64,000 nt of DNA, from assembly GCF_014267175.1 (NCBI RefSeq), contig NZ_JACMTR010000002.1, positions 1,725,001 to 1,789,000 on the forward strand, read 5' to 3'. The notes below the pieces were generated by a model. The model was given only the letters and a program-made list of their open reading frames with translations, ran no database searches and had not been told where the DNA came from. Numbering within the stretch: position 1 is the first letter of the stretch; each line of letters begins with the position of its first letter. The DNA comes from Pseudonocardia sp. C8 (GTDB taxonomy: Bacteria; Actinomycetota; Actinomycetes; Mycobacteriales; Pseudonocardiaceae). A program made the translations under genes and the position numbers. Below, in pieces: positions 8,152 to 59,518 of the stretch.

Positions 8152-9021
8152 GTGGCAGCGCAGCTGATGCCGGCGGCGTTCTTCGGGCACGGCAACCCGA
8201 TGAACGCGCTCGCGACGAACCGGTACACCACCGCCTGGCGGGCGTTCGGCGCGGCCGTGCCCCGCCCGCGGGCGATCCTGGTGATCTCCGCGCACTGGTA
8301 CGTCAACGCGACCGCGGTGACCACGATGCCGCGGCCGCGCACCATCCACGACTTCTTCGGCTTCCCGCAGGAGCTGTTCGACGTCCGCTACCCCGCACCC
8401 GGCCTGCCCGAGCTGTACGACGAGGTCGCCGAGATCGCGAAGCCGACCTGGGTCGGGGCGGACGTCGACAGCTGGGGCATCGATCACGGCACCTGGTCGG
8501 TGCTGGTGCACGCCTTCCCGGACGCGTCGATCCCGGTCGTGCAGCTCTCGATCAACGCCGAGAAGCCGCTCGACTACCACCTCGATCTCGGGGCCAAGCT
8601 GGCCCGGCTGCGCGAGACCGGGGTCCTCGTCGTGGCCAGCGGCAACGTCGTCCACAACCTGGGCGGGCTGGACCGCACGCGGCCGGACAGCGGCTTCGAC
8701 TGGGCCGAGCGGTTCGACGAGGCGGCCCGCGAGGTCATGCTCGGCGCCCCGGCGGAGTTCGCGACCCTGGACCGGCACCGCGACTACCGGCTCGCCGTCC
8801 CGACCGCGGACCACTTCGTGCCGGCGCTGTACCTGGCCGGGGTGGCCTCGGCGGACCCCGGCGGCGGCGCGCCGGAGGTTCTGGTCGACGGCTACGCCTA
8901 CGGCTCGCTGTCGATGACCGCCTACACCCTGGGCCTGTCGTGCCCGGAGGTCCCGGGCGCCGAGACGGGGACGGCCCCCGCGCTGCCGGACGGGCCGCCG
9001 CCGGAGTCGTCGAACATCTGA
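8152..9021 (+). CDS. ygiD: 4,5-DOPA dioxygenase extradiol (YgiD/LigB superfamily)
   Basis: 289 aa from GTG 8152. The class III extradiol dioxygenase signature is present: AAFFGHGNPMNAL at the N-terminus (metal His), ISAHWYVN near residue 45, WGIDHGTWSVLVHAFP near 110 and a C-terminal DHFVPALYLAG (His). Fe or Zn would be bound by these His residues. The family opens DOPA or other catechols; YgiD of E. coli is the best-known relative. It stands alone 21 nt after tetR, so cotranscription with that operon is possible. Confidence 0.88.
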   Translation: MAAQLMPAAFFGHGNPMNALATNRYTTAWRAFGAAVPRPRAILVISAHWYVNATAVTTMPRPRTIHDFFGFPQELFDVRYPAPGLPELYDEVAEIAKPTWVGADVDSWGIDHGTWSVLVHAFPDASIPVVQLSINAEKPLDYHLDLGAKLARLRETGVLVVASGNVVHNLGGLDRTRPDSGFDWAERFDEAAREVMLGAPAEFATLDRHRDYRLAVPTADHFVPALYLAGVASADPGGGAPEVLVDGYAYGSLSMTAYTLGLSCPEVPGAETGTAPALPDGPPPESSNI

Positions 9022-9918: not shown

Positions 9919-9964
9919 GTCGGTCGAGCTTTCACTATTCTGTCGACCGACAAGAATGTGAAAG
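9919..9964. promoter_or_regulatory. Two overlapping inverted repeats upstream of the kynurenine operon
   Basis: GTCGGTCGA (9919-9927) pairs with TCGACCGAC (9943-9951), and CTTTCAC (9929-9935) pairs with GTGAAAG (9958-9964). Both sit within 57 nt of the kynU start and are AT-enriched. The PaaX-family protein of the operon or a distant regulator could bind here; which one is not determined. Confidence 0.5.
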
Positions 9965-9975
9965 GGAGGCCCGGG

Positions 9976-29172: not shown

Positions 29173-31338
29173 ATGGCCGAACGGTCCTTCGCCGCCGAGG
29201 TGCAGAAGCTGCGCGCCGGCGCGGGCGAGACCCTGCACGTCGAGGGGATCCTGGCCGTGACGAAGGCGCTGCTGCAGTCCGGCGTCGCCTACGTCGGCGG
29301 CTACCAGGGTGCCCCCATCTCGCACCTGATGGACGTCCTCGGTGACGCCCGCGAGATCCTCGACGAGCTCGACGTCCGGTTCGAGAACTCCGCCTCCGAG
29401 GCGACCGCGGCCGCGATGCTCGCCGCCTCGGTGCACCACCCGCTGCGCGGCGCGATCACGTTCAAGTCCCCGGTCGGCACCAACGTCGCCTCCGACGCGC
29501 TGGCCAACCTCGCCTCCGGAGGCGTGACCGGCGGCGCACTGGTGATCCTCGGCGAGGACTACGGCGAGGGTTCGTCGATCATGCAGGAGCGCTCGCACGC
29601 GTTCGCGATGAAGTCGCAGATGTGGCTGCTCGACCCACGGCCGAACACGACCGCGATCGTCGACGCCGTCGAGGCCGGCTTCGAGCTGTCCGAGGCGTCG
29701 CACACCCCGGTGTTCCTGGAGCTGCGGCTGCGGTCCTGTCACCTGCACGGCGGGTTCGTCGCCAAGGACAACCGGCGACCGCCGATGACCGTCGCCGAGG
29801 CCGCCGACGACCCGCGGCGGTCCGTCGACCGGATCGTGCTGCCGCCGGCGAGCTTCGCCCACGAGAAGGAGAAGCTGGAACAGCGCTGGCCGAAGGCCGT
29901 CCAGTTCATCCGCGAGCGCGGGATGAACGAGGTCTTCCCCGGTTCCCCGGAGGCGTCCGAGGTCGGGATCCTCGTCCAGGGCGGGCTGTACAACACGCTG
30001 AACCGGTCGATGGAGCTGCTCGGCTGCTCCGACGCGTTCGGTCGCACCCGGGTCCCGACCTACGTCATGAACGTGACCTACCCGGTCGTCGACTCGGAGA
30101 TCATCGAGTTCTGCTCCGGCAAGCGTGCCGTGATCATGGTGGAGGAGGGCCAGCCCGACTACATCGAGCAGAACCTGCACGCGATCCTGCGCCGCGCCGG
30201 GGTGACCACGGTGCTGCACGGCAAGGACATGCTCGCGGCCTCGGGGGAGTACACCTCGCAGGTCGTGACCCGCGGCCTGGACGAGTTCCTGACCAAGTAC
30301 ACCCCGGACGTCGTCACCCACCGGCCGTCGCTGCTGCTCGACCCGGCCGACCCGCGCAGCCCGCTCGCCCCACGGGTCGCCGCCGAGGTCGTCCGGCCGC
30401 GGCCGCCCGGCCTGTGCACCGGCTGCCCGGAACGGCCGATCTTCTCCGGGCTGAAGCTGGCCGAGCGGGAGACCGGGCAGCACCAGATCTCCGCGGACAT
30501 CGGCTGCCACCTGTTCGCGATCAACGCGCCCTTCGACATCGGGGCGACGACGATGGGCTACGGGATGGGCGCGGCCGGAGCCTCCGCGCTGGCCGGCGGG
30601 AAGTCGTCGCAACGCCCCGTCTCGATCATGGGCGACGGCGGGTTCTGGCACAACGGGCTGGTCTCGGGCGTCGGGAACGCGGTGTTCAACAAGTCCGACC
30701 AGGTGATGGTGGTCGTCGACAACGACTACGCGGCCGCCACCGGCGGGCAGGACGTGCTGAGCTCGCACGCCGAGTCCGAGCGCCGCTCGACGCGGCACCC
30801 GATCGAGAAGGCCGCCCGCGGCCTCGGGATCACCCGCGCGACCACGATCGACCACACCTACGACGTTCAGCGGGTCAAGGACGCCTTCCTGGCCGCGTTC
30901 CGCCGCAAGGAGTCCGGTCCCGAGCTGCTGGTCATGCAGTCCGAGTGCCAGCTGAACCGGCAGCGGCGGGTGAAGTCCGAGCGCGCCGCGAAGCTGAAGC
31001 GCGGCGAGCGCGTCGTCCGGGAGCGGTTCGGCGTCGACCCGGAGACCTGCACCGGCGACCACGCCTGCATCCGGATCTCCGGATGCCCGTCGCTGACGAT
31101 CACCGACAACCCGGATCCACTGCGGACCGATCCGATCGCGACGGTGCTCGACAGCTGCGTCGGCTGCGGGGTCTGCGGTAACAACGCGCACGCCGCGGTG
31201 CTCTGCCCGTCGTTCTACCGCACCGACGTCGTCGACAACCCCACCGTCTCGGAGCGGCTGCTGGCCCGGCTCCGGTCGTGGTGGATCTCGCTCGCGTCCC
31301 GGGGCATCGAGGCCCGGGCCGCCCGGATGGAGGCCTGA
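29173..31338 (+). CDS. Indolepyruvate ferredoxin oxidoreductase, alpha subunit (IorA-like)
   Basis: 721 aa with a pyrimidine domain at the N-terminus (LLQSGVAYVGGYQGAPISHLMDVL) and a ThDP-binding domain further on (GDGGFWHNGLVSGVGNAVFNKSDQVMVVVDNDYAAATGGQ). A cluster-binding tail carries CTGDHACIRISGCPSLT and CVGCGVCGNNAHAAVLCPSFY. The family oxidatively decarboxylates aryl 2-oxoacids to acyl-CoA with ferredoxin as acceptor. ATG 29173 follows GAGGAG. Operon of three genes with RidA last. Indolepyruvate would fit the tryptophan theme; other aryl oxoacids are possible. Confidence 0.9.
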   Translation: MAERSFAAEVQKLRAGAGETLHVEGILAVTKALLQSGVAYVGGYQGAPISHLMDVLGDAREILDELDVRFENSASEATAAAMLAASVHHPLRGAITFKSPVGTNVASDALANLASGGVTGGALVILGEDYGEGSSIMQERSHAFAMKSQMWLLDPRPNTTAIVDAVEAGFELSEASHTPVFLELRLRSCHLHGGFVAKDNRRPPMTVAEAADDPRRSVDRIVLPPASFAHEKEKLEQRWPKAVQFIRERGMNEVFPGSPEASEVGILVQGGLYNTLNRSMELLGCSDAFGRTRVPTYVMNVTYPVVDSEIIEFCSGKRAVIMVEEGQPDYIEQNLHAILRRAGVTTVLHGKDMLAASGEYTSQVVTRGLDEFLTKYTPDVVTHRPSLLLDPADPRSPLAPRVAAEVVRPRPPGLCTGCPERPIFSGLKLAERETGQHQISADIGCHLFAINAPFDIGATTMGYGMGAAGASALAGGKSSQRPVSIMGDGGFWHNGLVSGVGNAVFNKSDQVMVVVDNDYAAATGGQDVLSSHAESERRSTRHPIEKAARGLGITRATTIDHTYDVQRVKDAFLAAFRRKESGPELLVMQSECQLNRQRRVKSERAAKLKRGERVVRERFGVDPETCTGDHACIRISGCPSLTITDNPDPLRTDPIATVLDSCVGCGVCGNNAHAAVLCPSFYRTDVVDNPTVSERLLARLRSWWISLASRGIEARAARMEA

Positions 31339-33086
31339 TGCCCACCGTCATGCCCGCGCCTGCGGAGACCGGTTCGTGGTACACCGGCGCCCGCCCGATC
31401 ACGATCGCCGTGCTCGCCATGGGCGGCGAGGGCGGCGGCGTGCTCGCCGACTGGATCGTCGCCGTCGCCGAGCGGGCCGGCCACCACGCGCAGTCGACGT
31501 CGGTCGCCGGTGTCGCGCAGCGCACCGGGGCGACCGTGTACTACGTCGAGCTGTACCCGCCGACGTCCGACGTGGACGGTTCCGGGCGGCCGGAGCCGGT
31601 GCTGAGCGTGTTCCCGTCGCCGGGCGAGGTCGACGTCGTCGTCGCGTCCGAGCTGATGGAGTGCGGTCGCGCGGTGCAGCGCGGGTTCGCCACCCCGGAC
31701 CGGACGACGCTGATCGCCTCGACCAACCGGGTCTACTCGATCGACGAGAAGATGCACCCGGGGGACGGCCGGGTCGACTCCGCGCAGCTCCTGGCGGCCG
31801 CCGCTCAAGCCGCGAAACGGCTCGTCGCGGCCGACTTCGCCGCGATCGCCGCGGAGCACCGCAGCGTGATCTCCGCGGCCCTGTTCGGCGCGGTCGCCGG
31901 CTCGGGCGCGCTGCCGTTCACCCGCGAGCAGTGCGAGCGGGCGATCCGCGACGCGGGCAAGGGGGTCGAGGCCAGCCTCGCCGCGTTCGCCGGAGGGTTC
32001 GACGCGGCGCGGTCGGCGCTCGACCGGCCGTCCGGTGCTCCCGCCGAGGGCGCGCCGGACGCGGGAGCCGGAACGGGACCCGTTCCGGTCGAGCTCGCGC
32101 CCCCGCCGCGCCGCCCCGCGCCGGTCGACATCACGATCGGCCCGCGACCGGTGTCGCCGGAGGAGGAGAAGGCGAGGGAGGAGGCCCGCCGGAACGCGAT
32201 CGCCGCGTCCGACCCGGAGTCCCTCGTCGGACCGGACCTGCGCCCGCTCGCCCGCGCCGTGGCCGGCCTTCCCGCGGCGGCCCGGTCGACGGTCCTGCAC
32301 GGGCTCGTCCGCACCGGCCTCTACCAGGACGTCGACTACGCCCGGCGCTACCTCGACCGCGTCCGCGCGTTCGCCGCCGCCGACCCGGATCCGGGCGGCG
32401 ACGCCCGGCTCACCACCGCGGCGGCCCGGCACCTGGCGCTGTGGATGTGCTACCAGGACACGATCCAGGTGGCGCTGCAGAAGACCCGCCGGCAGCGGCT
32501 CGAGCGGGTCCGCGCCGAGGCACACGCATCACGGGCGCAGGTGAGCCAGGTCCGGGAGTACCTGCACCCGCAGTCCGAGGAGATCACCGACACGCTGCCC
32601 TACCGGCTGGGGAAGATCCTGCGCCGGTCGCGGGCGTTCACCCGCGCCGTCGACCGCGCCACCCGGGACGGGATGGTCCTCAACACGACGTCGGCCACCG
32701 GCTACACGATGCTGTCCACGATGGCCCGGCTGCGACCGCTGCGCCCGCGTTCGCTGCGCTTCGTGGAGGAGCAGGGCGCGATCGAGGACTGGATGTCGCT
32801 CGCGCTCGACGTCGCCGGAACCGATACCGCGCTGGCCGGCGAGATCGTCGAATGCCAGCAGGTCCTCAAGGGCTACGGCGCCACCTACGCACACGGCAAC
32901 GACAGCTTCGCCCTGCTCATGGGCGCGGCCCGGCGGCTGCGCGGGACCGACGACGCCGCCGCGGTGCTCGCCCGGCTCCGCTCCGCCGCCCAGGCCGACG
33001 AGGACGGCGCCGCGCTGCGCGCGCAGCTGTCCGGCGCCGGCCTCCCCACGACCCCCGACACGAGGAAGAAGAGGACCAGGTCATGA
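31338..33086 (+). CDS. Indolepyruvate oxidoreductase beta-type subunit with DUF6537-like extension
   Basis: 582 aa, about three times an archaeal IorB. Residues about 20-215 form the pyruvate:ferredoxin oxidoreductase gamma domain (AVLAMGGEGGGVLADWIVAVAERAGHHAQSTSVAGVAQRTG). A Pro/Ala-rich linker near 230-275 precedes a mostly helical C-terminal domain (about 300-560) like the DUF6537 part of actinobacterial and proteobacterial indolepyruvate oxidoreductases. ATG 31338 shares a base with the IorA stop. No Fe-S motif is visible in this subunit. Confidence 0.85.
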   Translation: MPTVMPAPAETGSWYTGARPITIAVLAMGGEGGGVLADWIVAVAERAGHHAQSTSVAGVAQRTGATVYYVELYPPTSDVDGSGRPEPVLSVFPSPGEVDVVVASELMECGRAVQRGFATPDRTTLIASTNRVYSIDEKMHPGDGRVDSAQLLAAAAQAAKRLVAADFAAIAAEHRSVISAALFGAVAGSGALPFTREQCERAIRDAGKGVEASLAAFAGGFDAARSALDRPSGAPAEGAPDAGAGTGPVPVELAPPPRRPAPVDITIGPRPVSPEEEKAREEARRNAIAASDPESLVGPDLRPLARAVAGLPAAARSTVLHGLVRTGLYQDVDYARRYLDRVRAFAAADPDPGGDARLTTAAARHLALWMCYQDTIQVALQKTRRQRLERVRAEAHASRAQVSQVREYLHPQSEEITDTLPYRLGKILRRSRAFTRAVDRATRDGMVLNTTSATGYTMLSTMARLRPLRPRSLRFVEEQGAIEDWMSLALDVAGTDTALAGEIVECQQVLKGYGATYAHGNDSFALLMGAARRLRGTDDAAAVLARLRSAAQADEDGAALRAQLSGAGLPTTPDTRKKRTRS

Positions 33087-38916: not shown

Positions 38917-39714
38917 TCATCCCCGGCCCGGGACGAACGCCAGCACCCGGGCCGGGCTCCCGGTGCCCCCGACGATCGGCAGCGGCGCGACCACCACGAC
39001 GGCGCCGGTGGCCGGCAGGAGCCCGAGGTTGCGCAGCGACGTGACGCCGTACCGGTCGTTCGCGAGCAGGTGGTGGTGGGCCGGCATCGGCGGGTCGAGG
39101 GAGAACCCGTTCCCGGCGTCGATCCCGACCGTCTCCACCCCGAAGCCGGCGACGGGAGTCTCCTCGGCGAGCCAGCGTGCGCACTCGGCCGAGATCCCGG
39201 GGGTGCGGGACACACCGTCGACGACGTTGAGGAACGCGTCGCGGTCGCCCCCGCGGGATTCCCAACCGGTGCGGTAGAGCAACCAGCCGCCCGCGCGGAG
39301 CGGACCGTGCTCGGCCTCCCACTCCCGGAGGTGGTCGACCTCGAGCAGGAAATCCGGGTCGCGGGCAGCGTCGGCGGAGCGGTCGACGACCATTGCCGGG
39401 CCGACCAGGCGGGTCACCGGGACCGAGGCCACGTCGTCACCGTCGGCGTGCGAGATCCAGTGCCGGGGCGCGTCGAGGTGGGTACCGACGTGCTCCCCGG
39501 TGTGGATGTTGTGGTGCCGCCAGAGGGGGCCGCCGCCGTCGAACGCGCTGACCTCCTCGAGGCTGAAGTCGATCAGGTTCGCGTACGGGGCGGGCAGCTG
39601 CAGGGTGGGTGTGTCGGCGCTCAGCGGGGTCGTCAGGTCGACGACGTCCAGCAGGCCGTCCCGCAACACGGAGGTCAGGTCGTGCAGGACGTCGGTCCCG
39701 GTCGTGGATGTCAC
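38917..39714 (-). CDS. Cyclase-family metal hydrolase (KynB/isatin hydrolase type)
   Basis: 265 aa from GTG 39714 with GGGAGG upstream. NIHTGEHVGTHLDAPRHW is the PF04199 metal motif HxGTHxDxPxH. PLPIVGGTGSPARVLAFVP closes the fold. The family contains kynurenine formamidase and isatin hydrolase; length and C-terminus resemble the latter group. It is a paralogue of the gene at 46286. Either N-formylkynurenine, N-formylanthranilate or isatin would fit the window. Divergent from IclR at 39939. Confidence 0.88.
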   Translation of the reverse strand: MTSTTGTDVLHDLTSVLRDGLLDVVDLTTPLSADTPTLQLPAPYANLIDFSLEEVSAFDGGGPLWRHHNIHTGEHVGTHLDAPRHWISHADGDDVASVPVTRLVGPAMVVDRSADAARDPDFLLEVDHLREWEAEHGPLRAGGWLLYRTGWESRGGDRDAFLNVVDGVSRTPGISAECARWLAEETPVAGFGVETVGIDAGNGFSLDPPMPAHHHLLANDRYGVTSLRNLGLLPATGAVVVVAPLPIVGGTGSPARVLAFVPGRG

Positions 39715-39938
39715 GGTCGTCCTCCCGAGTCGTGCGCCGGCCCTCGTCGGACGGCGCTCCGCTTCCCGCTCGGGCCACCGGGCGGGGGCGCCAGGCAATG
39801 CCAGCGGGCCGTCCCTGTCGAGCATCCGGTTCGCTGGCCGGAACGCCGCCTGCGCGCCCGGTCGGCAGTAGCATCGCCCTCCACCAGGTCGGCCGCGGCA
39901 CACCGCCGTCGCCGCGGCACGGTGCGGGAGGGTCGGTG

Positions 39939-46285: not shown

Positions 46286-47059
46286 ATGCCCGTGCTGCCC
46301 GCCCTGCTCGACGCCACCCGGTCCGGCGCGGTCCGGATCGTCGACCTGACCACGCCCCTGCAGGAGTCCACCCCGATCCTGGAGCTCCCGGCCCCGTTCG
46401 CGAACACCAGCCGGTTCCGGCTCGAGGAGCTCTCCCGCTACGACGACCGCGGCCCGGCCTGGTACTGGAACGACATCCACACCGGCGAGCACACCGGCAC
46501 CCACGTCGACGCCCCGAACCACTGGATCACCGGCAAGGACGGCCTCGACGTCTCCCGGGCACCGCTGTCCACACTGGTCGCTCCCGCGGTGGTGATCGAC
46601 AGGACCGCGGAGGCGGCGAAGGACGCCGACTTCCTGCTCGAGATCGCCCACGTGCAGGAGTGGGAGGCCGAGCACGGGTCGCTGCCCGAGGGCGGCTGGC
46701 TGCTCTACCGCACCGGCTGGTCCGCGCGCGGCGACGACGCGGCCGCGTTCGCCAACGCCGACGAGCACGGTCCGCACACCCCGGGCGTGTCCCCGGAGTG
46801 CGCGCGGTGGCTCGCCCGCGAGACCCCGATCACCGGGTTCGGCGTGGAGACCGTCGGCACCGACGCCGGGCAGGCGCCCGCGCTGGAGCCGGCGTTCCCG
46901 TGCCACTCCGAGCTGATGGGGGCCGGCAAGTGGGGGCTGACCAGCCTGCGCCGGCTCGACGAGCTCCCGGCCACCGGCGCGGTACTGGTGGTGTGCCCGC
47001 TGCCGATCGTCGGCGGGTCGGGCAGCCCGGCGCGGGTGCTCGCGCTGGTCGAGGGGTGA
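46286..47059 (+). CDS. Cyclase-family metal hydrolase (KynB/isatin hydrolase type), second copy
   Basis: 257 aa from ATG 46286 with CGGAGG upstream. DIHTGEHTGTHVDAPNHWIT is the metal motif and PLPIVGGSGSPARVLALVEG the C-terminus. It matches the 38917 gene closely along its whole length (for example GGWLLYRTGW and GFGVETVG in both), so the two are paralogues. Coupled by a 4-nt overlap to a Crt-like oxidoreductase. Candidate kynurenine/anthranilate deformylase or isatin hydrolase. Confidence 0.88.
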   Translation: MPVLPALLDATRSGAVRIVDLTTPLQESTPILELPAPFANTSRFRLEELSRYDDRGPAWYWNDIHTGEHTGTHVDAPNHWITGKDGLDVSRAPLSTLVAPAVVIDRTAEAAKDADFLLEIAHVQEWEAEHGSLPEGGWLLYRTGWSARGDDAAAFANADEHGPHTPGVSPECARWLARETPITGFGVETVGTDAGQAPALEPAFPCHSELMGAGKWGLTSLRRLDELPATGAVLVVCPLPIVGGSGSPARVLALVEG

Positions 47060-48678
47060 GCGTGGCGGCACACCGCGGCCGGGCCGACGCGGTCGTCGTC
47101 GGCGCCGGGATCAACGGGCTCGCCGCAGCCGCCCGGCTCGCCCGGGCCGGATGGTCGGTCGCCCTGGTCGACGACCACGACCGGATCGGCGGGTTCGTCG
47201 CCGCCCGCGAGCGGGACGGGTACGTACACGACACCTGGTCGAGCTGGCATCCGCTGTTCGTGACCGGTCCGGCGTACGCGGCGTTCGGCGCCGACCTGCA
47301 CCGGCACGGGCTGGCCTACGCCAACACCGACGGACCGCTGACCGCGACGGTCACCGCGGGCGGGGAGGTCGTGCTCGCGTACCGCGACGTCGCCGGGACC
47401 GTGGCCGGGTTCGCCGAGCCGGCCGACCGGGACGCCTACCGGGCCATGATCGAGCGGTTCGGCGCGCACGCCGCCGGGATCGGCGGGCTGCTCGGCGCGG
47501 AGCTGCACGCGCCGTCGTCGCTGGGGCCGGTCGCGACGCTGGCGCGGGCGGCCGGCCGGGCCGGGCTCGGGTCCTACGCCCGCGACGCGTTGACCTCGGG
47601 CCGCTCCTGGCTGCGCTCCCGGTTCGCCGGGCCGGAGACCGACCGCCTGTGGGCGCCGTGGCTGCTGCACGCCGGGCTGGCCCCGGACTCGGCCTCCGGC
47701 GGCCTGATGGTGCCGGTCCTCGCGGCGACCCTGCACGGTGCCGGGCTGCCGGTCGTCGCCGGGGGCGCCGGGAACTTCCTCACCGCGTGGGAGCGGCTGC
47801 TCGACGAGCTCGGCGTCTCCGTCCACACCGGACGGCGGGTGGAGCGGATCCGGACCGACGGCGGGGCGGCCGCGGGCGTCGCGGGGGACGGGTTCGAGAT
47901 CCGCGCCGAGCGCGCGGTGCTCGCCTCGGTCACCCCGCCCGCGCTGTACGGCACGCTCCTGCCCGCCGGCGCGGTGCCGCCCGGGGTCACCGCCGCGGCC
48001 GGCCGCTACCGGCCGGGCCGGGCCGCGATGCAGATCCACGTGGAGCTGTCGGGCCCGGTGCCCTGGGCCGATCCCCGCCTGGGCGGCGTGCCGCTGGTGC
48101 ACCTCTCGGACGGGTCGTCGTCGACGGCCATCGCCTGCGCAGAGGCGGAGGCCGGGCTGCTGCCCCGGCGGCCCACCGTCGTCGTCGGGCAGCAGCACGT
48201 GCTCGACCCGTCCCGGGTGCCCGAGGGCGCGGCCGCGCTGTGGCTGCAGCTGCAGGAACTGCCGTGGGAGCCGGTCGGCGACGCGGCCGGCGAGCTGGAC
48301 ACCACGGGCGGTTGGGGTCCCGCGCTCGCCGAGGCCTACGCCGGGCGGGTCCTGGACCGGATCGCCGCGCACGCACCGGGCCTGCGCGACCTGGTCCGGG
48401 GCGTCGAGGTGACCGACCCGGCCGGGATCGCGGCGTACAACCCGAACGCCCTGTGCGGGGACCCGTACGGCGGCTCGGCCGAGCTCGACCAGAACTTCTG
48501 GTGGCGCCCGCTGCCGACCTCGGGCGGCCACGCGACCCCGGTCCGGCGGCTCTGGCAGATCGGTGCGTCCACCCATCCCGGCCCGGGACTGGGCGGGGCG
48601 TCCGGCTACCTGGTGGCGGACCGGCTCGCCACCCCGGGCGCGTTCGCCCGGCTGCGGTCCCGGCTGCGCGGGACCTGA
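47056..48678 (+). CDS. FAD-dependent oxidoreductase, phytoene desaturase-like
   Basis: 540 aa from GTG 47056 (GTG 47062 possible). VVVGAGINGLAAAARLARAGWSVALVDDHDRIGGF is the dinucleotide motif, and WQIGASTHPGPGLGGASGYLVADRLA is the C-terminal FAD-binding segment of the CrtI/PDS superfamily. No other carotenoid gene is nearby, so a different dehydrogenation is likely. Cotranscribed with the cyclase-family hydrolase. Confidence 0.87.
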   Translation: MSVAAHRGRADAVVVGAGINGLAAAARLARAGWSVALVDDHDRIGGFVAARERDGYVHDTWSSWHPLFVTGPAYAAFGADLHRHGLAYANTDGPLTATVTAGGEVVLAYRDVAGTVAGFAEPADRDAYRAMIERFGAHAAGIGGLLGAELHAPSSLGPVATLARAAGRAGLGSYARDALTSGRSWLRSRFAGPETDRLWAPWLLHAGLAPDSASGGLMVPVLAATLHGAGLPVVAGGAGNFLTAWERLLDELGVSVHTGRRVERIRTDGGAAAGVAGDGFEIRAERAVLASVTPPALYGTLLPAGAVPPGVTAAAGRYRPGRAAMQIHVELSGPVPWADPRLGGVPLVHLSDGSSSTAIACAEAEAGLLPRRPTVVVGQQHVLDPSRVPEGAAALWLQLQELPWEPVGDAAGELDTTGGWGPALAEAYAGRVLDRIAAHAPGLRDLVRGVEVTDPAGIAAYNPNALCGDPYGGSAELDQNFWWRPLPTSGGHATPVRRLWQIGASTHPGPGLGGASGYLVADRLATPGAFARLRSRLRGT

Positions 48679-48763
48679 TCCGCCGTCGGGTCGTGCGCGC
48701 CGGCCGCGCCCGGCGCACCGGGCGGCTCGGGCGGCGCATCGCACCGCCGCCCGTGTGCCGGGC

Positions 48764-48793
48764 GCCCGGGGGAGCCGGCGGCTCCTCCCGGGC
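48764..48793. terminator. Bidirectional terminator-like hairpin
   Basis: GCCCGGGGGAGCC (48764-48776) pairs with GGCTCCTCCCGGGC (48780-48793) with one bulged base and a 3-nt loop. It lies between the convergent oxidoreductase (+) and araC (-) genes; no T tract. Confidence 0.55.
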
Positions 48794-48796
48794 CGG

Positions 48797-49759
48797 TCAC
48801 CGGCCGCGGTGGGCCGTCTGCGACGGCAGCTCCCCGTAGCGGACCCGGTAGTCGTGGGCGAAGCGGCCGAGGTGGCCGAACCCGCACGCGTGGGCGACCT
48901 CGGCGACCGGTGCCTCGCCGGCGGCGAGGGCACGGCGGGCGCGGGCCAATCGGATCTCGCGGAGTGCGGCGGCCGGGCCGCTGCCCCGCCGCCGCCGGAA
49001 CTCCTCCTGCAGCCGCCGGGTGCTCACCCCGGTGGCCCGGGCGAGGCCGCCGACGGTGACCGGCTCGGCATGGTGCTCCTCCAGCCAGGCGAGGGCACGG
49101 TCGACCAGATCGGCCGGTGCCGCGCGGGTCCGGTCGTCGTGCAGGGCACCGCTCGCGGTGTGCGGCAGGGACAGCAGGACCGCGGTCAGCAGCTGCTCCT
49201 CGAGCACTCGCGCGAGCATGCCCGCCGGACGGCCACCGCTGTCGCGCAGCACCCGGCACGTCGTCCGCCAGGCCTCGTCCAGCAGCGACGGCGGAGCGGG
49301 CGTCGGGACCGCGCCGGCCGGCAGGAACCGCACGGCGGGCCCCGGTTCCCGGCCGGTGAGCGTGCGAAGATGGTCCTCGATCCGGGCCGAGCCGGTCGAG
49401 ACGACCAGCGCCCCCGCGTGCGGGTCGGGTTCCATCACCGTGTGCCGGTCGCCGGACAGCACGAAGGCACCCGCCGCGACGCCGCCGTCGTAGAGGCCCC
49501 GGGCGCGGACCCGCATCGGCCCGAGCGGCACGGTGAGGGCGAACCGGGTGCGCGTCGGGAACGCGTCGACGGTCACCTCGGCGCCGTAGCGCACGAACGC
49601 GACGTTCGTGGCACCCAGCTCGGCCACGGCGACGGCGCCGTCCGGGCGGCCGCGCCGCACCCCGATCTCGTGCACGACCGTCACCCGCTGCACCCGCTCG
49701 CGCAGCTCGGCGAGCTCGTCGCTGCGCCGCGCCGGCACCGGCGTGTCCGATCCGTGCAC
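48797..49759 (-). CDS. AraC-family regulator
   Basis: 320 aa. GTG 49759 was chosen because AGGAGG (49765-49770) lies 5 nt upstream; the GTG at 49765 overlaps that site. The C-terminal helix-turn-helix pair (ATGVSTRRLQEEFRRRRGSGP, then ACGFGHLGRFAHDYRVRYGELPS) resembles the AraC proteins at 13660 and 45223. The sensor domain is more divergent. It follows the luciferase-like gene by 10 nt on the same strand, so it probably controls that gene. Confidence 0.9.
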   Translation of the reverse strand: MHGSDTPVPARRSDELAELRERVQRVTVVHEIGVRRGRPDGAVAVAELGATNVAFVRYGAEVTVDAFPTRTRFALTVPLGPMRVRARGLYDGGVAAGAFVLSGDRHTVMEPDPHAGALVVSTGSARIEDHLRTLTGREPGPAVRFLPAGAVPTPAPPSLLDEAWRTTCRVLRDSGGRPAGMLARVLEEQLLTAVLLSLPHTASGALHDDRTRAAPADLVDRALAWLEEHHAEPVTVGGLARATGVSTRRLQEEFRRRRGSGPAAALREIRLARARRALAAGEAPVAEVAHACGFGHLGRFAHDYRVRYGELPSQTAHRGR

Positions 49760-49769
49760 GAGCACCTCC

Positions 49770-50870
49770 TCAGACCGGGGCGCGGACGCCCCGCGCCTCC
49801 AACCTCGGGAGCACCTCCTGGGCGAAGTGCTCCAGCTCCGAGACGTAGTCCACGAAGGACAGCGTCATTCCGGCGAACCCGGCCTCGTGGAACGCCGCGA
49901 TCGCGTCGGCGACGTCGTCCGGGGTCCCGACCAGCGGGCAGGAGCCGTGCCCCGCGGCGAAGCGGGCACGGTAGGTGGACAGCATCTCGGGGGTGAACGA
50001 CTGCGCGTGCAGGCCCTGCAGGCGCATGAGGTTGTCCACCGCGGCCCAGTCGGCGTGCTCGTCGGCGTAGTGGCGCAGGAAGTCCTCGGCCTCGGCCCGG
50101 GTCGGCCGGCAGACGACGTGCCCGAGCGTGAAGACCCCGACCGTGCGGCCGTACCGGGTGCGGGCGGCGTGCCCGATCTCCCGCACGATCCCGGCACCGT
50201 CCTCTGGTCCGCCGACGATCGTGAAGGCGACGTCGGCGTTGCGGGCGGCGAAGCCACGCCCCTGCCCGGAGGAGCCCGCGTTGAGGACCGGGAGCGGGCC
50301 GTCGTGCGGTTTCGGCATGCTCTCGACCCCCTCCAGCCGGAAGAACCGGCCGTCGTGGTCGAACCGCCCGTGCTCGGTCCAGAGCCGGCGGATCACGTCC
50401 CACCACTCCTGGGCGAGCGCGTAGCGGGCGTCGTGGTCGGTGGGCAGGTCCGCGCCGAGCGCCCGGTACTCGGGCTCGTTCCAGCCCGCCACGATGTTGA
50501 TCCCGGCCCGCCCCGCGCCGATCCGGTCCGCGGTGGCGAGCTGCTTGGCGACGACCACGGGGTGGTGGAACGCCGTGTGCACGGTGGAGAACACCGTGAT
50601 CCGGCGGGTCCGGGCGAGCAGGGCCGACGCGAGCGTGGTCGGGTCGAGCACGCCCTCGTGGAAGTTGGTCTCGCCGCCGTAGCCGATCCAGCGGGCGATC
50701 GGGAGCAGGAAGTCGATCCCGGCGTCGTCGGCCAGCTCGGCGAGGCGCAGGTTGTCCTCCCAGCTGCCGGACCAGCGCTCCGGGACGCGGGTGACGGCGA
50801 GTCCGGACGAGCAGTTGGCGGAGAAGAGCCCGAGCTTGAAGCCCTTGCCGTCCGCGACGGGCTTGACCAT
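49770..50870 (-). CDS. LLM-class flavin-dependent oxidoreductase
   Basis: 366 aa TIM-barrel luciferase-like monooxygenase. FKLGLFSANCSSGLAVTRVPERWSGSWEDNLRLAELADDAGIDFLLPIARW at the N-terminus, GINIVAGWNEPEYRALG mid-protein and a C-terminal GTPDDVADAIAAFHEAGFAGMTLSFVDY fit the RutA/SsuD-like group that uses reduced FMN to open heterocycles or C-S bonds. ATG 50870 follows AGGAG. First gene of an operon with araC. A heterocycle substrate would fit the window but is unproven. Confidence 0.9.
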   Translation of the reverse strand: MVKPVADGKGFKLGLFSANCSSGLAVTRVPERWSGSWEDNLRLAELADDAGIDFLLPIARWIGYGGETNFHEGVLDPTTLASALLARTRRITVFSTVHTAFHHPVVVAKQLATADRIGAGRAGINIVAGWNEPEYRALGADLPTDHDARYALAQEWWDVIRRLWTEHGRFDHDGRFFRLEGVESMPKPHDGPLPVLNAGSSGQGRGFAARNADVAFTIVGGPEDGAGIVREIGHAARTRYGRTVGVFTLGHVVCRPTRAEAEDFLRHYADEHADWAAVDNLMRLQGLHAQSFTPEMLSTYRARFAAGHGSCPLVGTPDDVADAIAAFHEAGFAGMTLSFVDYVSELEHFAQEVLPRLEARGVRAPV

Positions 50871-53149: not shown

Positions 53150-54379
53150 TCAGGGCACCGCGGGAGCCGCCCGGGGCGTCCGCACCTGCCGGCGGCGGAC
53201 GGGGGTCGCGACGGCCGCCAGGCAGGCGAGCGTCCCGATCGCGACCGCCGTCCAGGCGGCGGGGTAGCCGTGCCCGGGTGTCAGGGCCCCGACCGCCCAC
53301 GGGACGGCGAACCCCCCGACTCCGCCGACGGTCAGGAGCAGCCCGACCGCGGTCCCGACGTGCTCCGAGGGCACCCCCGCGACATCGGCCGGGATCGTCT
53401 GCCAGATCGCGAAGCAGCCGTTGAACCCGAAACCGACCAGGAACGCCGCGAACCACAGCCCGCCCGGGCCGAGGAGCGGGAGGAGCAGCGTGCCGGCCGC
53501 CTGGAGCACCAGGAACGCGGTGAACCAGGCCCGGCGGCGCCGGGAACGGTCCGAGAGCCATCCGGCGACCAGGCTTCCGGGTAGCCCGGCGACGCCGGCC
53601 ATGAGGGCGGCCAGCGCCGCCACCGACGCCGGGTAGTCCGCGTCGAGGGCGAACGTGCCGACCAGCTGCGCCACCGCGAAGTAGCCGCCATACCCGACGA
53701 AGAACGCCAGGCCGAAGCGCCACAGCGCCGTGTTGCCGAGCACGGCCCGGATCGACCCGCGGGTCAGCACGGTGCCGCGCAACTCGGCGGTCCCGTCGGG
53801 GGCCCGGTACACCGACCCCACCAGGACGGCCACGGCGAACGCCGTGCCACCGGCCGCGGCCAGGCCGGCGCGCCAGCCGAGCGCGTCGAGCACGGGTGTC
53901 CAGAGGTAGAGGCCGACGGCGACCCCGACGCTGAACGACGCCGACACGACCCCCATGGCCAGCGCGTGCTCGCGCTCGCGGAACCAGGCACTGACCGCGG
54001 CGATGCCGATCCCGGCGAACACGGAGGCGGCGAGGCCTGCGACCAGTCGCAGCACCAGCAACGTCCGGTAGTCGGGGGCCAGCGCCGCGAGCGCGGTGGA
54101 GGCCCCCTCCAGGGCCAGCCCGGCCGTCATGGTCGACCGCAGTCCGAACCGGACGGCCAGGAAGCCGGCCGGGATGTGCATCACCGCGTAGCCGCCCACG
54201 AACGCGGACAGCAGGAGGGCGAGCTCGGGCAGGCCCGAGGAGAACGCCTGAGCGACACCACCGAACGTGCCGGGCATGACGAACCAGTTGAAGGTGAACG
54301 CGACGAAACCGAGTGCGGTCACGCCCAGCATCAGCCACCGGCGGCCCGAATCCGGGCCGGCCGCAGGTGTAGGGGACAT
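53150..54379 (-). CDS. MFS transporter (CynX/nitrate-like)
   Basis: 409 aa, twelve helices. FVAFTFNWFVMPGTFGGVAQAFSSGLPELALLLSAFVGGYAVMHIPAGFLAVRFGLRSTM covers helices 1-2 and the loop. No specific transporter family is diagnosed. It lies 21 nt downstream of the HOD-like gene on the same strand, so it probably moves the substrate or product of that enzyme. Confidence 0.88.
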   Translation of the reverse strand: MSPTPAAGPDSGRRWLMLGVTALGFVAFTFNWFVMPGTFGGVAQAFSSGLPELALLLSAFVGGYAVMHIPAGFLAVRFGLRSTMTAGLALEGASTALAALAPDYRTLLVLRLVAGLAASVFAGIGIAAVSAWFREREHALAMGVVSASFSVGVAVGLYLWTPVLDALGWRAGLAAAGGTAFAVAVLVGSVYRAPDGTAELRGTVLTRGSIRAVLGNTALWRFGLAFFVGYGGYFAVAQLVGTFALDADYPASVAALAALMAGVAGLPGSLVAGWLSDRSRRRRAWFTAFLVLQAAGTLLLPLLGPGGLWFAAFLVGFGFNGCFAIWQTIPADVAGVPSEHVGTAVGLLLTVGGVGGFAVPWAVGALTPGHGYPAAWTAVAIGTLACLAAVATPVRRRQVRTPRAAPAVP

Positions 54380-54400: not shown

Positions 54401-55195
54401 TCAGGCGTAGAAGGACCGGACGGCCTCGGCCACCGCGGCCGGGCTCTCCAGGGTGGGGAAATGGGTCCGGCCCGGGATGTGCACGGGCTCGAACCACGGA
54501 TTCTGTCGAGCGAAGTCCTCCTGGAACTGCCGGTACCCGGCTGCGAGCGGCTGGGAGTACACGTGCCGCACCCGGAGCCCGTCCTGAAGGCGTGTCATCC
54601 GCTTGAGCGGGTCGCCCCACTCGGCGTAGCTCTTCTGGATCTCCCGGCACGCGCGCATCCACATGCGTTCGCCGAACCAGGTCATCTCGCGGTTCACGTG
54701 GTCGATGACGTCGATGTTGTCGGTGCCCTCGGTCCACTCGTCGAACAGGCCCCGCCGGGCGGCGACGACGGTCTCCGGGGCGCACCCCTCCCGGATCAGG
54801 GTATGGAAACCCTCGAAGGGCTGCATCAGCCAGTCGACCACGACCGTCCGGCCGATCGATCGCGCGCCGAGCCGGTCGTGCACCTCGATGTTCACCCAGC
54901 ATCCGTGCGAGGTGGACAGCATCCGGACGTCCTCGAGTTCGAGCCGGTCGATCACCTCCAGGACGTCCTCGGCGAGATCGTCGGCGGTGAAGTCCCCGAC
55001 GTCGGTCAGCCGCCCGTCATGGCCGCGGAAGTTCAGGCAGAGCACCCGGTGGTCCTCGGCGAGCAGCGGCGCCAGGTGCCGGAACAGTCGGTGGTCCTGT
55101 GCCCAGCCGTGCAGGAGCAGCAGGGGCGGGGCTCCCGCGTCGCCGTACTCGACGTACTCGAGCGGGACCGTGCCGCGGGTCAGCGTCTTGATCAT
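54401..55195 (-). CDS. HOD/AqdC-like cofactor-free 3-hydroxy-4-quinolone 2,4-dioxygenase
   Basis: 264 aa alpha/beta-hydrolase fold. It carries the residues known in 3-hydroxy-2-methylquinolin-4-one dioxygenase (HOD): LLHGWAQDHRLF at 27-38, STSHGCWV with Ser96-His97, DWLM with Asp121, and GRTHFP with His245. HOD has Ser101, Asp126 and His251, the same spacing within one residue. RHVYSQP and FARQNPWF also match. The family opens the N-ring without metal or cofactor, releasing CO and an N-acylanthranilate; AqdC does this to the Pseudomonas quinolone signal. ATG 55195 has an AAGGA site; the frame extends upstream to GTG 55375 but that part looks noncoding. Confidence 0.85.
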   Translation of the reverse strand: MIKTLTRGTVPLEYVEYGDAGAPPLLLLHGWAQDHRLFRHLAPLLAEDHRVLCLNFRGHDGRLTDVGDFTADDLAEDVLEVIDRLELEDVRMLSTSHGCWVNIEVHDRLGARSIGRTVVVDWLMQPFEGFHTLIREGCAPETVVAARRGLFDEWTEGTDNIDVIDHVNREMTWFGERMWMRACREIQKSYAEWGDPLKRMTRLQDGLRVRHVYSQPLAAGYRQFQEDFARQNPWFEPVHIPGRTHFPTLESPAAVAEAVRSFYA

Positions 55196-55380
55196 GATCT
55201 GGTCCTTCCGGAGCCGACCGGCCCCGGGCACGGCGGTGCCCGGAGGCGTGCAAGGGATCGGTGCACCCGCCGCGCGGAAGGCGCACACGGCACCGTCCCT
55301 CCCGACGTGGGGGCGGTGCGGAGGAGCGGGCAGACGCTCCGTCGATGTGAGCGAGGTCGTGTTGTCGACGGCCACTGACG

Positions 55381-55420
55381 ACGGTAAGAGGGGCGACAGA
55401 GACAGTCAATAGCGCGCTAT
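55381..55420 (-). promoter_or_regulatory. Promoter and operator of the HOD-like gene
   Basis: Reading leftward, TTGACT (-35, 55404-55409), a 17-nt spacer and TACCGT (-10, 55381-55386) form a good sigma-70 promoter. The palindrome ATAGC-GC-GCTAT (55409-55420) abuts the -35. The same ATAGC-N2-GCTAT motif occurs at 55986-55999, so the MarR protein between them is the likely binder. The 5' leader is about 175 nt. Confidence 0.75.
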
Positions 55421-55428
55421 GAACTTCT

Positions 55429-55911
55429 TCACTTCTCGGCGATCTGCTCTTCGATGATCTCGACCAGGCGGCTGAGCACGGCCACGACGTCCGCGCGCTG
55501 CTCCGCCGGGAACCGGAGCAGGGAGTCCCGTTGCCAGTGGCGCAGCAGTGCGTACTTGGCCTCCCACAGCTCGCGTCCGGCCTCGGTCAGCTCCACCAGG
55601 ACGACCCGGTCGTCGTGCTCACCGGGGATCCGGCGGACGACCCCCTGCCGCTCCAGGCCGTTGATCATGCGGGTGACCGTCGGCTGGGCGATGCCCGCCT
55701 GGCGGGCGATCACGCCGACCGGGAGCGGGCCCTGATGGGCCACCGACTCCAGGGTGGCGACCTGGGCCTCGGTGAGGTCGGTGCCGGCTCCGCGCCTGCC
55801 GACCGTGCCACGTCCGCGCTTGAGAACGCGGTAGATGCCGTTGCAGGCCTCGGCCCAGGCGTCCTCCAGATCCGCGGGGAGGTCGGGGGTCTCGTCGTGC
55901 CGGTCGCTCAC
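55429..55911 (-). CDS. MarR-family repressor of the quinolone genes
   Basis: 160 aa from GTG 55911. The winged helix VGVIARQAGIAQPTVTRMINGLERQGVVRRIPGEHDDRVVLVELTEAG spans about residues 65-115. It sits between the HOD-like gene and the divergent FAD monooxygenase gene, each with an ATAGC-N2-GCTAT palindrome in its promoter. MarR proteins typically release DNA on binding an aromatic ligand, here plausibly a quinolone or anthranilate derivative. Confidence 0.92.
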   Translation of the reverse strand: MSDRHDETPDLPADLEDAWAEACNGIYRVLKRGRGTVGRRGAGTDLTEAQVATLESVAHQGPLPVGVIARQAGIAQPTVTRMINGLERQGVVRRIPGEHDDRVVLVELTEAGRELWEAKYALLRHWQRDSLLRFPAEQRADVVAVLSRLVEIIEEQIAEK

Positions 55912-55985
55912 CTGTCTCCGCCTCCTGGTCTGCCCGCACCCGCTGCCGTCCGGACGAGCTGCGATCCGGGGCTGGCGGCGGATCG

Positions 55986-55999
55986 CATAGCAAGCTATG
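55986..55999. promoter_or_regulatory. MarR operator CATAGC-AA-GCTATG
   Basis: A perfect palindrome in the divergent marR/FAD-monooxygenase promoter, overlapping a TATGTT -10-like element (55996-56001) on the + strand. It shares the half-site with the operator at 55409-55420. Confidence 0.78.
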
Positions 56000-56169
56000 T
56001 TCTGTCCGTCGAACCGGGCCACCCGACGTACGGGCCCGGTGGAACCCGCGACCGGTGGCAGGCCGGGCGGGCTCCCGGTCTCCGAACAGTACGGACCGCC
56101 CGTCCGCGCGGTCCCGGTGAGGCGCCCCGCGGACGGTCCGTGTCCGGAGGGGACGGAAGGACGTTCGAC

Positions 56170-57327
56170 ATGTCGTCACGCACGCCGCACGCGGAGGTGG
56201 TCGGGGCCGGTATCGGCGGACTGACCGCGGCCGCCGCGCTCGCCCGTCGCGGCTGGTCGGTCACGGTGCACGAACGCGAGGACACCGTGCGCGCGTTCGG
56301 CTCGGGCATCTACCTCTGGAGCAACGGGCTGGGCGTCCTCGGTGACCTCGGTGTGCGTGAGCGCACCGTCGAGGGCGCCCACCACGGCCCGTCGATCCAG
56401 ACCCGGGACCGCCGCAACCGGACACTCGCCCGGCTCCCCACGAACGGGCCGGGCCAGGTGCAGGTGCTCACCGTGCTGCGCGAGCGGCTGATCTCCGCGC
56501 TGGTCGCCGCCGCGACCGACGCGGGTGCGGAGATCGTGACCGGCTCGGCAGCGCACGCCGTCGACCCGCGCGGCGCGATCGTGCTCGACGGTGGCGAGCG
56601 ACGCGCGGCCGATCTCGTCGTCGTCGCCGACGGCGTCGGATCCCGGCTCCGAGACGGGCTGGGACTGCTCGGTCGCCGCCGGCGGCTGGGCCAGCGCTGC
56701 GCGCGCGTGCTCATCCCGCGGGACACCGATCTGCTCCCGGCCGCCGACGCCGACCACTACATCGAGTGGATGTCCGGGCGCCGGTTCCTGCTCTACACCC
56801 CGAGCAGTGTCACCGACGCCTACATCGCGCTGGTGTGTCCCGCCGGCGACCGGGAGGCCATGGGGGCCGAGATCCCGCGGCCGGTGTGGGAGCGGGCCTT
56901 CCCGCACGCCGCATCCATCGTGTCCCGCATCGGCCCGGTCGCCCGGTGGGACGAGTTCGAGTGGGTCGAGCTGCGGTCGTGGTCCACCGGCCGGGTCGCC
57001 GTGCTCGGAGACGCCGCGCACGCCCAGCCGCCGTACCTCGGGCAGGGAGGCGGATGCGCCATGATGGCGGCCCACGGGCTCGCCCATGCGATGAGCTGCG
57101 GTGCCGGAACGCCTGCCGAACGGCTGGCCCGCTGGGAACGGACCGAGCGACCGCTGATCCGGCACACCCAGCGGTTCTCGTACGGAATCGGCAGGCTCAA
57201 CGACGTGCCGGAGCTGCCGCGCCGGCTCTTGCTCTCGACCCTGGGGCGTTCGCGTTCGTTCGGCCGTTCCCGGCTCCGTGCCGCGCAGGCGGTCCCGACC
57301 GGCCTCCCGCGGGCGTCCGGTCGTTGA
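56170..57327 (+). CDS. FAD-dependent monooxygenase, candidate quinolone 3-hydroxylase
   Basis: 385 aa class A flavin monooxygenase. VVGAGIGGLTAAAALARRGWSV at residue 10, ADGVGS at 153-158 (DG motif) and LGDAAHAQPPYLGQGG at 279-294 (GD motif) are all intact. ATG 56170 follows GGAAGG. It is divergent from marR under the shared operator. In known quinolone pathways such a monooxygenase (AqdB or MeqF type) adds the 3-hydroxyl that HOD/AqdC then needs; this assignment is by context. Confidence 0.85.
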   Translation: MSSRTPHAEVVGAGIGGLTAAAALARRGWSVTVHEREDTVRAFGSGIYLWSNGLGVLGDLGVRERTVEGAHHGPSIQTRDRRNRTLARLPTNGPGQVQVLTVLRERLISALVAAATDAGAEIVTGSAAHAVDPRGAIVLDGGERRAADLVVVADGVGSRLRDGLGLLGRRRRLGQRCARVLIPRDTDLLPAADADHYIEWMSGRRFLLYTPSSVTDAYIALVCPAGDREAMGAEIPRPVWERAFPHAASIVSRIGPVARWDEFEWVELRSWSTGRVAVLGDAAHAQPPYLGQGGGCAMMAAHGLAHAMSCGAGTPAERLARWERTERPLIRHTQRFSYGIGRLNDVPELPRRLLLSTLGRSRSFGRSRLRAAQAVPTGLPRASGR

Positions 57328-58105: not shown

Positions 58106-59518
58106 GTGAAGACCTACCCACTGTCCCGACCGGTGGACGGAAGGGACACCTGGCACGACGGCAAGCGCCACGCCTGGCTGCTGGGCCTGGTCGTGCCCAT
58201 CCTGCCGTTCCTCGCGATCGGGTTGCACCTGCTCACCGGGCTGTCGGTGATGCTGTGGCTCGGCCCGGTCGTCGTCCTGGTGATCGTCCCGGCGATCGAC
58301 CTGGTCGCCGGGCACGATCCGACGAACCCGCCGGACGAGGTGATGGAGCAGCTCGAGGAGGACCGCTACTACCGCTGGGTCACCTATGCGTACCTCCCGC
58401 TGCAGTACGCGGGCCTGTTCACGGGCACGGGGTACATCGCGTACGCCGGGGCCCCGTTGATCGGGAACATCGGCATGGCCGTCACCCTCGGCACCGTCGC
58501 CGGGGTCGCGATCAACACGGCGCACGAGCTCGGCCACAAGCGCGAGGACGTCGAGCGGTGGGCGGCCAAGATCGCCCTGGCGCCCAGCTTCTACGGGCAC
58601 TTCTACGTCGAGCACAACCGCGGCCACCACGTCCGCGTCTCCACTCCCGAGGACCCCGCATCGGCCCGGATGGGGGAGAGCTTCTACCGGTTCTGGCCGC
58701 GTACCGTCCTCGGTTCGCTGACCAGCGCCTGGAAGCTGGAGCGCAAGCGCTACGCCCGCCGCGACCGGCACCCGTTCCGGATCGGCAACGACGTGCTCAA
58801 CGCCTGGCTGATGTCGGTGGTCCTGTGGGGCGTGCTGATCGCGTCCTTCGGCTGGAGGCTGCTGCCGTACCTGCTGATCCAGGCCGTCGTCGGGTTCACC
58901 CTGCTCGAGCTGGTCAACTACATGGAGCACTACGGGATGCTGCGCCAGCAGGTCGGCCCGCCGGACCGCCGCCGCTACGAGCGGGTCACCCCGGCGCACT
59001 CGTGGAACTCCAACAACATCGCCACCAACGTGCTGCTCTACCACCTGCAGCGGCACTCGGACCACCACGCGAACCCGACCCGGCGCTTCCAGACCCTGCG
59101 CGACTTCCCGGAGGCCCCGGTCCTGCCGACCGGCTACACCGGGATGATGCTCGCCGCACTCGTGCCGCCGGTGTTCCGGCGGCTGATGGACCCGCTGGTG
59201 CTCGCGCACTACGACGGCGACCTGCGGCTGGCGAACCTGCAGCCGGCGAAGCGCGAGCGGCTGCTGGCCGCGTACCCGCCGCCCGCCGACCCGGTCGAGA
59301 CCGAGCTCGCCGACACCGCCCGGCAGAAGCAGGTCGACGGTGTGACCGCCGCCCGCTGCCCCGGCTGCGGTTACACCTACGAGGTCGCCGCCGGCAACGA
59401 GGCCGAGGGCTTCCCGGCCGGCACCGCCTGGTCGGAGATCCCCGACGACTGGACCTGCCCCGACTGCGGGGTCCGCGACAAGGTCGACTTCGTCGCCCTG
59501 ACGACCGAGGAGGTCTGA
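58106..59518 (+). CDS. alkB: Alkane 1-monooxygenase fused to rubredoxin
   Basis: 470 aa. Residues 1-390 are the membrane di-iron hydroxylase: hydrophobic helices near 25-65 and 95-135, then the eight-His set HELGH (140-144), HNRGHH (170-175) and LQRHSDHH (H317, H320, H321), plus NYMEHYG. Residues about 415-465 are a rubredoxin with CPGCGYTYE (C418, C421) and WTCPDCGVRDK (C451, C454). Fusion removes the need for a separate rubredoxin. A ferredoxin gene follows after 1 nt. The usual TetR (AlkU) regulator is absent; a PucR-type gene follows instead. Confidence 0.96.
   Translation: MKTYPLSRPVDGRDTWHDGKRHAWLLGLVVPILPFLAIGLHLLTGLSVMLWLGPVVVLVIVPAIDLVAGHDPTNPPDEVMEQLEEDRYYRWVTYAYLPLQYAGLFTGTGYIAYAGAPLIGNIGMAVTLGTVAGVAINTAHELGHKREDVERWAAKIALAPSFYGHFYVEHNRGHHVRVSTPEDPASARMGESFYRFWPRTVLGSLTSAWKLERKRYARRDRHPFRIGNDVLNAWLMSVVLWGVLIASFGWRLLPYLLIQAVVGFTLLELVNYMEHYGMLRQQVGPPDRRRYERVTPAHSWNSNNIATNVLLYHLQRHSDHHANPTRRFQTLRDFPEAPVLPTGYTGMMLAALVPPVFRRLMDPLVLAHYDGDLRLANLQPAKRERLLAAYPPPADPVETELADTARQKQVDGVTAARCPGCGYTYEVAAGNEAEGFPAGTAWSEIPDDWTCPDCGVRDKVDFVALTTEEV

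Follow-up and report, generated by a model that had tools for sequence, protein, structure and literature searches.

The protein encoded at positions 54401-55195 of a 64,000-nucleotide stretch of Pseudonocardia sp. C8 DNA (contig NZ_JACMTR010000002.1, positions 1,725,001 to 1,789,000; the whole 64 kb stretch is called the window) belongs to the HOD/QDO/AqdC enzyme family. Together with the genes beside it, this protein probably forms a pathway under MarR control that oxygenates a small 4(1H)-quinolone in two steps. The most likely role of the locus, judging from sequence comparison, is the breakdown of a simple 4-quinolone with release of carbon monoxide (CO). An original prediction, made from the letters of the DNA alone, had described a candidate pathway of the aqd/meq type for quinolones like 2-heptyl-4-quinolone (HHQ) and Pseudomonas quinolone signal (PQS), possibly one that quenches quorum signals.

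The locus comprises four genes. Transcription on the minus strand runs from a MarR-family regulator of about 160 amino acids (55429 to about 55911) through the dioxygenase to an MFS transporter (53150-54379), which follows the dioxygenase at a distance of 21 bp. The open frame of the regulator reaches 56022, and its start was set by comparison with five relatives. On the far side of MarR lies a divergent class A flavin adenine dinucleotide (FAD) monooxygenase of 385 amino acids (56170-57327, plus strand), which resembles MeqD and AqdB1 and is likely a 4-quinolone 3-monooxygenase. The regulator between the two oxygenase genes, the divergent monooxygenase and the adjoining transporter had all been predicted; the transporter, which is Meq-like, falls outside the coordinates originally given.

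A dioxygenase of the QDO clade

The dioxygenase is a 264-amino-acid protein of alpha/beta-hydrolase fold, with a minus-strand frame open across 54401-55195, and we assign it as a QDO-type 3-hydroxy-4-quinolone 2,4-dioxygenase. It is the only full-length copy in the 6.24 Mb genome, where 11 further matches are partial (best E 1.4e-8). In sequence searches of the PDB, nine distinct sequences, all named QDO, AqdC-type or HOD, were recovered at E 7.4e-95 to 3.1e-46 before an epoxide hydrolase appeared in tenth place at E 2.8e-9, so that the family match lies far beyond chance. The fold and the cap domain superpose better on HOD, QDO and AqdC than on other hydrolases. The family assignment of the original prediction thus held, and the outcome that it had named as damaging, best structural matches to esterases, did not occur: QDO was the top match in each sequence and fold search. 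The predicted HOD-like residues were found in place as well, and Ser96-His97, Asp121 and His245 are invariant across an alignment of 45 rows including the window protein. The His/Asp dyad (D121/H245) and the elbow serine (S96) align to the positions of HOD and QDO, whose catalytic residues are given in an excerpt of PMC3961685 as Ser101/Asp126/His251 and Ser95/Asp120/His244, respectively. The Ser-Asp and Asp-His gaps are 25 and 124 residues in the window protein and in QDO, and 25 and 125 in HOD.

Within the family, the window dioxygenase and QDO fall in one 54-row clade (SH-like approximate likelihood ratio test, SH-aLRT, 100) of a quick tree of 71 rows. For this tree, the short homologues P0066 and P0067 (<230 amino acids) were dropped from a set of 58, and loci and outgroup rows were added. 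AqdC1 groups with HOD, and AqdC with AqdC2, both outside the QDO clade, although long branches (those of the outgroup, AqdC1, AqdC2 and others were flagged) make the deeper joins uncertain. The window protein is 53% identical to QDO versus 32-35% to HOD, AqdC, AqdC1 and AqdC2, and it groups with none of the three AqdC-type PQS dioxygenases.

The substrate pocket was compared over 21 positions, namely the 19 HOD ligand contacts listed in an excerpt of PMC10548524 plus Asp126 and His251. The window protein agrees with QDO at 18 of these, with HOD and AqdC at 14 each, with AqdC1 at 13 and with AqdC2 at 12. Its Met171 (HOD Met177) is common to QDO and HOD, and the same position holds Ser in AqdC and AqdC2 and Ala in AqdC1 and in a Prescottella relative; the small residue of the AqdC types possibly makes room for an alkyl chain. 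The named QDO substrate carries a hydrogen at C2, according to a scheme legend in PMC6479552, and the product to be expected is therefore N-formylanthranilate and not the N-acylanthranilate originally proposed. The pocket agreement with QDO only suggests a C2-unsubstituted 3-hydroxy-4-quinolone as substrate. Taken with the clade and Met171, it lends no support to the predicted HHQ/PQS specificity or to a role in quenching quorum signals, and the dioxygenase is closer to the simple-quinolone enzyme than to the enzymes that destroy quorum signals.

Partner monooxygenase and candidate MarR operator

The monooxygenase is of the AqdB/MeqD kind by sequence. Its identity is 57% to the flavoprotein adjacent to HOD on plasmid pAL1, which we take to be MeqD (its record reads FAD-dependent monooxygenase), 54% to AqdB1 and 47% to AqdB2. 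AqdB1 is named as an HHQ monooxygenase in one source. Excerpts of PMC5332414 present AqdB2 as an HHQ monooxygenase that depends on NADH, and report that AqdB of M. abscessus converted HHQ to PQS in E. coli.

Conservation of the locus was assessed at 12 of 14 fetched loci, those with full-length dioxygenase relatives in named genomes (L021 and L022, partial hits to other hydrolases, were left out). A monooxygenase relative lies inside the fetched flanks at 11 of the 12; one stretch (L019) holds only 12,183 bases, and its flank is therefore short on one side. In 6 of these 11 genomes, no other monooxygenase match outranks the locus copy, and the next paralogue in the window's genome follows at E 1.6e-22. 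In a tree of 18 monooxygenases, 17 of them with a known dioxygenase partner, those from QDO-type loci are not united in a single clade: the proteins from Actinobacteria group with MeqD and AqdB1, and the alphaproteobacterial ones stand apart. Forcing them together lowered the log-likelihood by 28.9 (approximately unbiased test, p-AU 0.0005), a test that was not blind because a larger tree had already shown the pattern and the groups were set by locus. QDO-type loci use two separate monooxygenase lineages, an observation new to this analysis, and the partner of QDO-type enzymes would have been replaced or recruited twice. A 51% relative was also observed on Variovorax sp. SRS16 plasmid 4 (L031, 7001-8194), adjoining an ABC importer and ring-cleavage genes. 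No dioxygenase of the HOD/QDO family was found within its fetched flanks, and its substrate may be different.

MarR relatives occur at 5 of the 12 loci, all actinobacterial (a weak 34% hit in L016, E 1e-5, was left uncounted), and the helix-turn-helix, or DNA-reading, region is well conserved across the six MarR proteins. Two copies of the exact palindrome ATAGCnnGCTAT are present in the window, one to either side of the MarR gene. Candidate operator 1 (ATAGCAAGCTAT, 55987-55998) lies in the divergent gap, where its distance is 75 bp to the start of MarR and 171 bp to that of the monooxygenase. Candidate operator 2 (ATAGCGCGCTAT, 55409-55420) lies in the gap that separates MarR from the dioxygenase, whose start is 213 bp downstream. 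Two copies in the window compare with occurrence in 0 of 100 shuffles, a count that was not blind because the palindrome was picked from a list of palindromes and then counted; allowing one mismatch adds a third window match at 1942. Better support comes from the five MarR-bearing relatives, some of them close to each other, which all carry ATAGCnnGCTAT once in the gap upstream of the monooxygenase.

Among the 74 fetched loci, 9 carry the palindrome: the window itself, fetched again as two stretches with two copies in each, the five loci with MarR, a locus of the same-genus genome G438 (L025) that matches P. acaciae, and a Metarhizobium stretch without the dioxygenase (L071), whose single copy is taken as chance. 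It is absent from L011 and from the six alphaproteobacterial loci in the same search. Other genes occupy the place of MarR at the alphaproteobacterial loci: Pfam identifies a gene of the TetR type in L018 and components of an ABC importer of the branched-chain-amino-acid type in L014, L016, L017 and L018; at the remaining ones, replacement genes were judged by eye from the gene list. Likely, ATAGCnnGCTAT is a shared operator of these MarR proteins, a candidate site new to this analysis, and our literature search returned no report of a QDO-type locus under MarR control. The regulator, now that a candidate operator is visible, could serve to find the natural inducer.

Proposed pathway and competing substrates

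In the pathway proposed here, the MFS transporter would possibly take up the quinolone, and the FAD monooxygenase would hydroxylate its C3 with NAD(P)H and O2. His245 and Asp121 of the dioxygenase would deprotonate the 3-hydroxyl group, O2 would attack the bare substrate with neither cofactor nor metal, and CO would be lost as the ring opens between C2 and C4. If C2 is unsubstituted, as in the QDO substrate, N-formylanthranilate would result, from which an unlinked deformylase may produce anthranilate. MarR, seated on the two palindrome copies, would keep both promoters repressed, and its binding of the quinolone or a product would lift the repression.

The locus leaves the final step to anthranilate unexplained, because none of the window frames matched MeqF, AqdA1 or AqdA2 at E 1e-8. 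Of the predicted aqd/meq-type pathway, the linked monooxygenase is present, and for the linked N-acylanthranilate amidase the window gave no match. A linked deformylase was sought as well. An alpha/beta hydrolase with an HGGYW motif beside MarR in Arthrobacter (L012) and Paenarthrobacter (L013) had weak nearest solved structures (best 1.3e-11), and its best counterpart in the window's genome is 39% identical and unlinked. A cyclase at 46286 matches isatin hydrolase and is for that reason not claimed as the deformylase.

Several observations weigh against the proposed pathway. The regulator and the transporter are sparsely shared (MarR at only 5 of the 12 loci, an MFS relative at only 2), the close relative L011 has neither the monooxygenase nor a MarR partner, and no deformylase or amidase was identified when one was looked for in the cluster. 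A better monooxygenase match lies elsewhere in 5 of the 11 genomes, all alphaproteobacterial, and the monooxygenase family also occurs without a nearby dioxygenase, as in Variovorax. On the substrate, the monooxygenase points the other way, since MeqD and AqdB1, with which it groups, act on 2-methyl and 2-heptyl quinolones. Furthermore, Gly137 replaces HOD Leu143 in 54 of 54 QDO-clade rows and might open space in the pocket, and the QDO-type locus of Beijerinckia (L016) has a 42% relative of MeqF, an N-acetylanthranilate amidase, about 9 kb from the dioxygenase.

One rival is a Meq-like pathway, in which a 2-methyl or other short 2-alkyl 4-quinolone would be converted to N-acetylanthranilate. 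Among the meq and aqd clusters compared, the window monooxygenase and the MFS protein (40% identical to the meq-cluster MFS; 54-55% to its counterparts at L012 and L013) are nearest to meq, Met171 is shared with HOD, and the Beijerinckia locus has its MeqF relative. However, the dioxygenase sits in the QDO clade and not with HOD, and neither a quinoline or quinaldine 4-oxidase nor a MeqF-type amidase adjoins it: a search with MeqL gave 14 large-subunit matches in the genome (31-35%), and MeqF gave six partial ones (28-37%), all outside the window. The genome G438, whose QDO-type dioxygenase matches the window protein at 72.348%, a figure identical to that of P. acaciae (L015), carries a separate HOD-type locus as well, which suggests different substrates for the two. 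We regard the Meq-like pathway as unlikely. The second cluster of G438 (L026, contig C7) holds a dioxygenase 49% identical to HOD, a monooxygenase and an MFS protein 57% identical to the meq transporter.

An Aqd-like pathway destroying HHQ and PQS would share its gene logic, aqdBC plus a transporter, with the locus, and the identity of the monooxygenase to AqdB1 is in keeping with it. This reading is distinctly less probable still, as the dioxygenase is 32-35% identical to AqdC, AqdC1 and AqdC2 versus 53% to QDO and falls in a separate clade, Met171 occupies the cap position where the AqdC types have Ser or Ala, no AqdA-type amidase was matched in the window, and a MarR gene with its own palindrome stands in place of the TetR-type AqdR. 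We give almost no credence to an ordinary esterase or epoxide hydrolase that merely resembles HOD: Pfam returns general hydrolase families only, all NCBIfam matches are under cut-off, and sources call the named relatives alpha/beta hydrolases or carboxylesterases, but QDO, HOD and AqdC score far above every other hydrolase in the fold and sequence searches, which refutes that identity at family level, and the partner monooxygenase and palindrome are conserved. The names used in the sources thus mislabel and conceal what are likely CO-releasing oxygenases.

Returning to the breakdown of a simple 4-quinolone, we tentatively suggest, with rather more doubt than confidence, that QDO-type loci represent a separately assembled pathway for C2-unsubstituted 4(1H)-quinolones. 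Its 3-monooxygenase would have been recruited at least twice: Actinobacteria would have gained a MeqD/AqdB1-like protein, encoded next to MarR, and Alphaproteobacteria a protein of another lineage, accompanied by a gene of the TetR type and an ABC importer of the branched-chain-amino-acid type. If true, this would suggest that simple 4-quinolones have a common natural source, perhaps tryptophan/kynurenine breakdown, and would not point to quorum signals. The locus offers a candidate 4-quinolone 3-monooxygenase partner for a QDO-type enzyme and a clean pair for testing how C2 substituents are selected.

Occurrence, neighbouring genes and known systems

The dioxygenase is rare and patchy. A match at E 1e-30 was found in 3 of 394 genomes drawn evenly from the class, the window's included, and the two others are 36% and 35% identical and lie outside the QDO clade. 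Among 100 related genomes, again including the window's, it was found in 2. This pattern suggests that the trait has been exchanged between genomes. Reportedly, the family was enlarged in a 2020 paper by Wullich et al. in Applied and Environmental Microbiology, which may already list the QDO-type clade. An excerpt of PMC10548524 puts the enlarged family at >150 members, nine of them tested.

A second group of genes lies at 46286-50870 and comprises the isatin-hydrolase-like cyclase (5nmp, E 1.5e-83), an FAD amine-oxidase-like protein, an AraC regulator and a RutA/SfnG-like LLM flavin monooxygenase (49770-50870). The LLM monooxygenase was considered as a further pathway part: in Beijerinckia (L016), a 56% relative is encoded roughly 2 kb away from the dioxygenase, and relatives at E 1e-60 occur in 9 of the 12 dioxygenase-locus genomes. 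It was set aside because the 100 related genomes hold it in 14 cases (E 1e-100) versus 2 for the dioxygenase, and because in Sciscionella (L072) and P. acaciae (L073) it stands with the cyclase and the amine-oxidase-like gene on a contig other than that of the dioxygenase. A loose link is possible, as the LLM gene is present in both dioxygenase-bearing genomes of the 100. In Beijerinckia, the dioxygenase is followed by the LLM and amine-oxidase genes, and its contig carries a 56% cyclase further on (L063).

Elsewhere in the window, a second cyclase-family protein is encoded at 38917-39903 on the opposite strand, with a PF04199 match like that of the first. A two-gene indolepyruvate:ferredoxin-oxidoreductase-like pair (IorA-like, PRK08312) occupies 29173-33086; IorA relatives (60-61%, E 1e-60) were found in 6 of 6 alphaproteobacterial dioxygenase genomes versus 0 of 6 actinobacterial ones. 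A kynureninase-like protein (9958-11190; TIGR01814, 238.5 bits, just below the 246.4 cut-off) and a 4,5-DOPA-extradiol-dioxygenase-like protein (8152-9021; 300 bits, cut-off 233) lie 43-46 kb from the quinolone locus, and kynureninase also gives anthranilate. At 58106-59518, a protein with an AlkB-like membrane fatty-acid-desaturase domain and a C-terminal rubredoxin domain is encoded next to a PucR-type regulator.

Compared with known systems, the aqd clusters of Rhodococcus erythropolis BG43 (AqdA1B1C1 and AqdRA2B2C2) encode dioxygenases of the same family and related monooxygenases, but these dioxygenases are 32-34% identical to the window protein, and AqdC2, like AqdC of M. abscessus, has Ala at the position of Ser96. 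Excerpts of PMC5332414 describe an amidase, for which the window yielded no counterpart, and a TetR-type AqdR in M. abscessus, whereas the window regulator is a MarR protein. The meq cluster of Arthrobacter sp. Rue61a plasmid pAL1 (HOD/MeqE) likewise unites monooxygenase, dioxygenase and MFS genes, the first and last at 57% and 40% identity. Its dioxygenase is only 34-36% identical, and it is adjoined by xanthine-dehydrogenase-type subunits and an alpha/beta hydrolase, presumably MeqF, neither of which the window locus has; the window has MarR with a divergent promoter instead. The solved structure nearest to the monooxygenase by sequence is 2-methyl-3-hydroxypyridine-5-carboxylate oxygenase (MHPCO, E 2e-61). 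MHPCO itself opens the pyridine ring, whereas ring opening is here assigned to the dioxygenase. The closest known relative of the dioxygenase is QDO of Pseudomonas putida 33/1 (PDB 3ibt), which groups with the window protein apart from HOD and AqdC. The window protein differs from QDO in its place on the tree, a branch of 22 rows in which the members with names come from Actinobacteria, and in having A32, I134 and L150 in its pocket where QDO has C, L and F.

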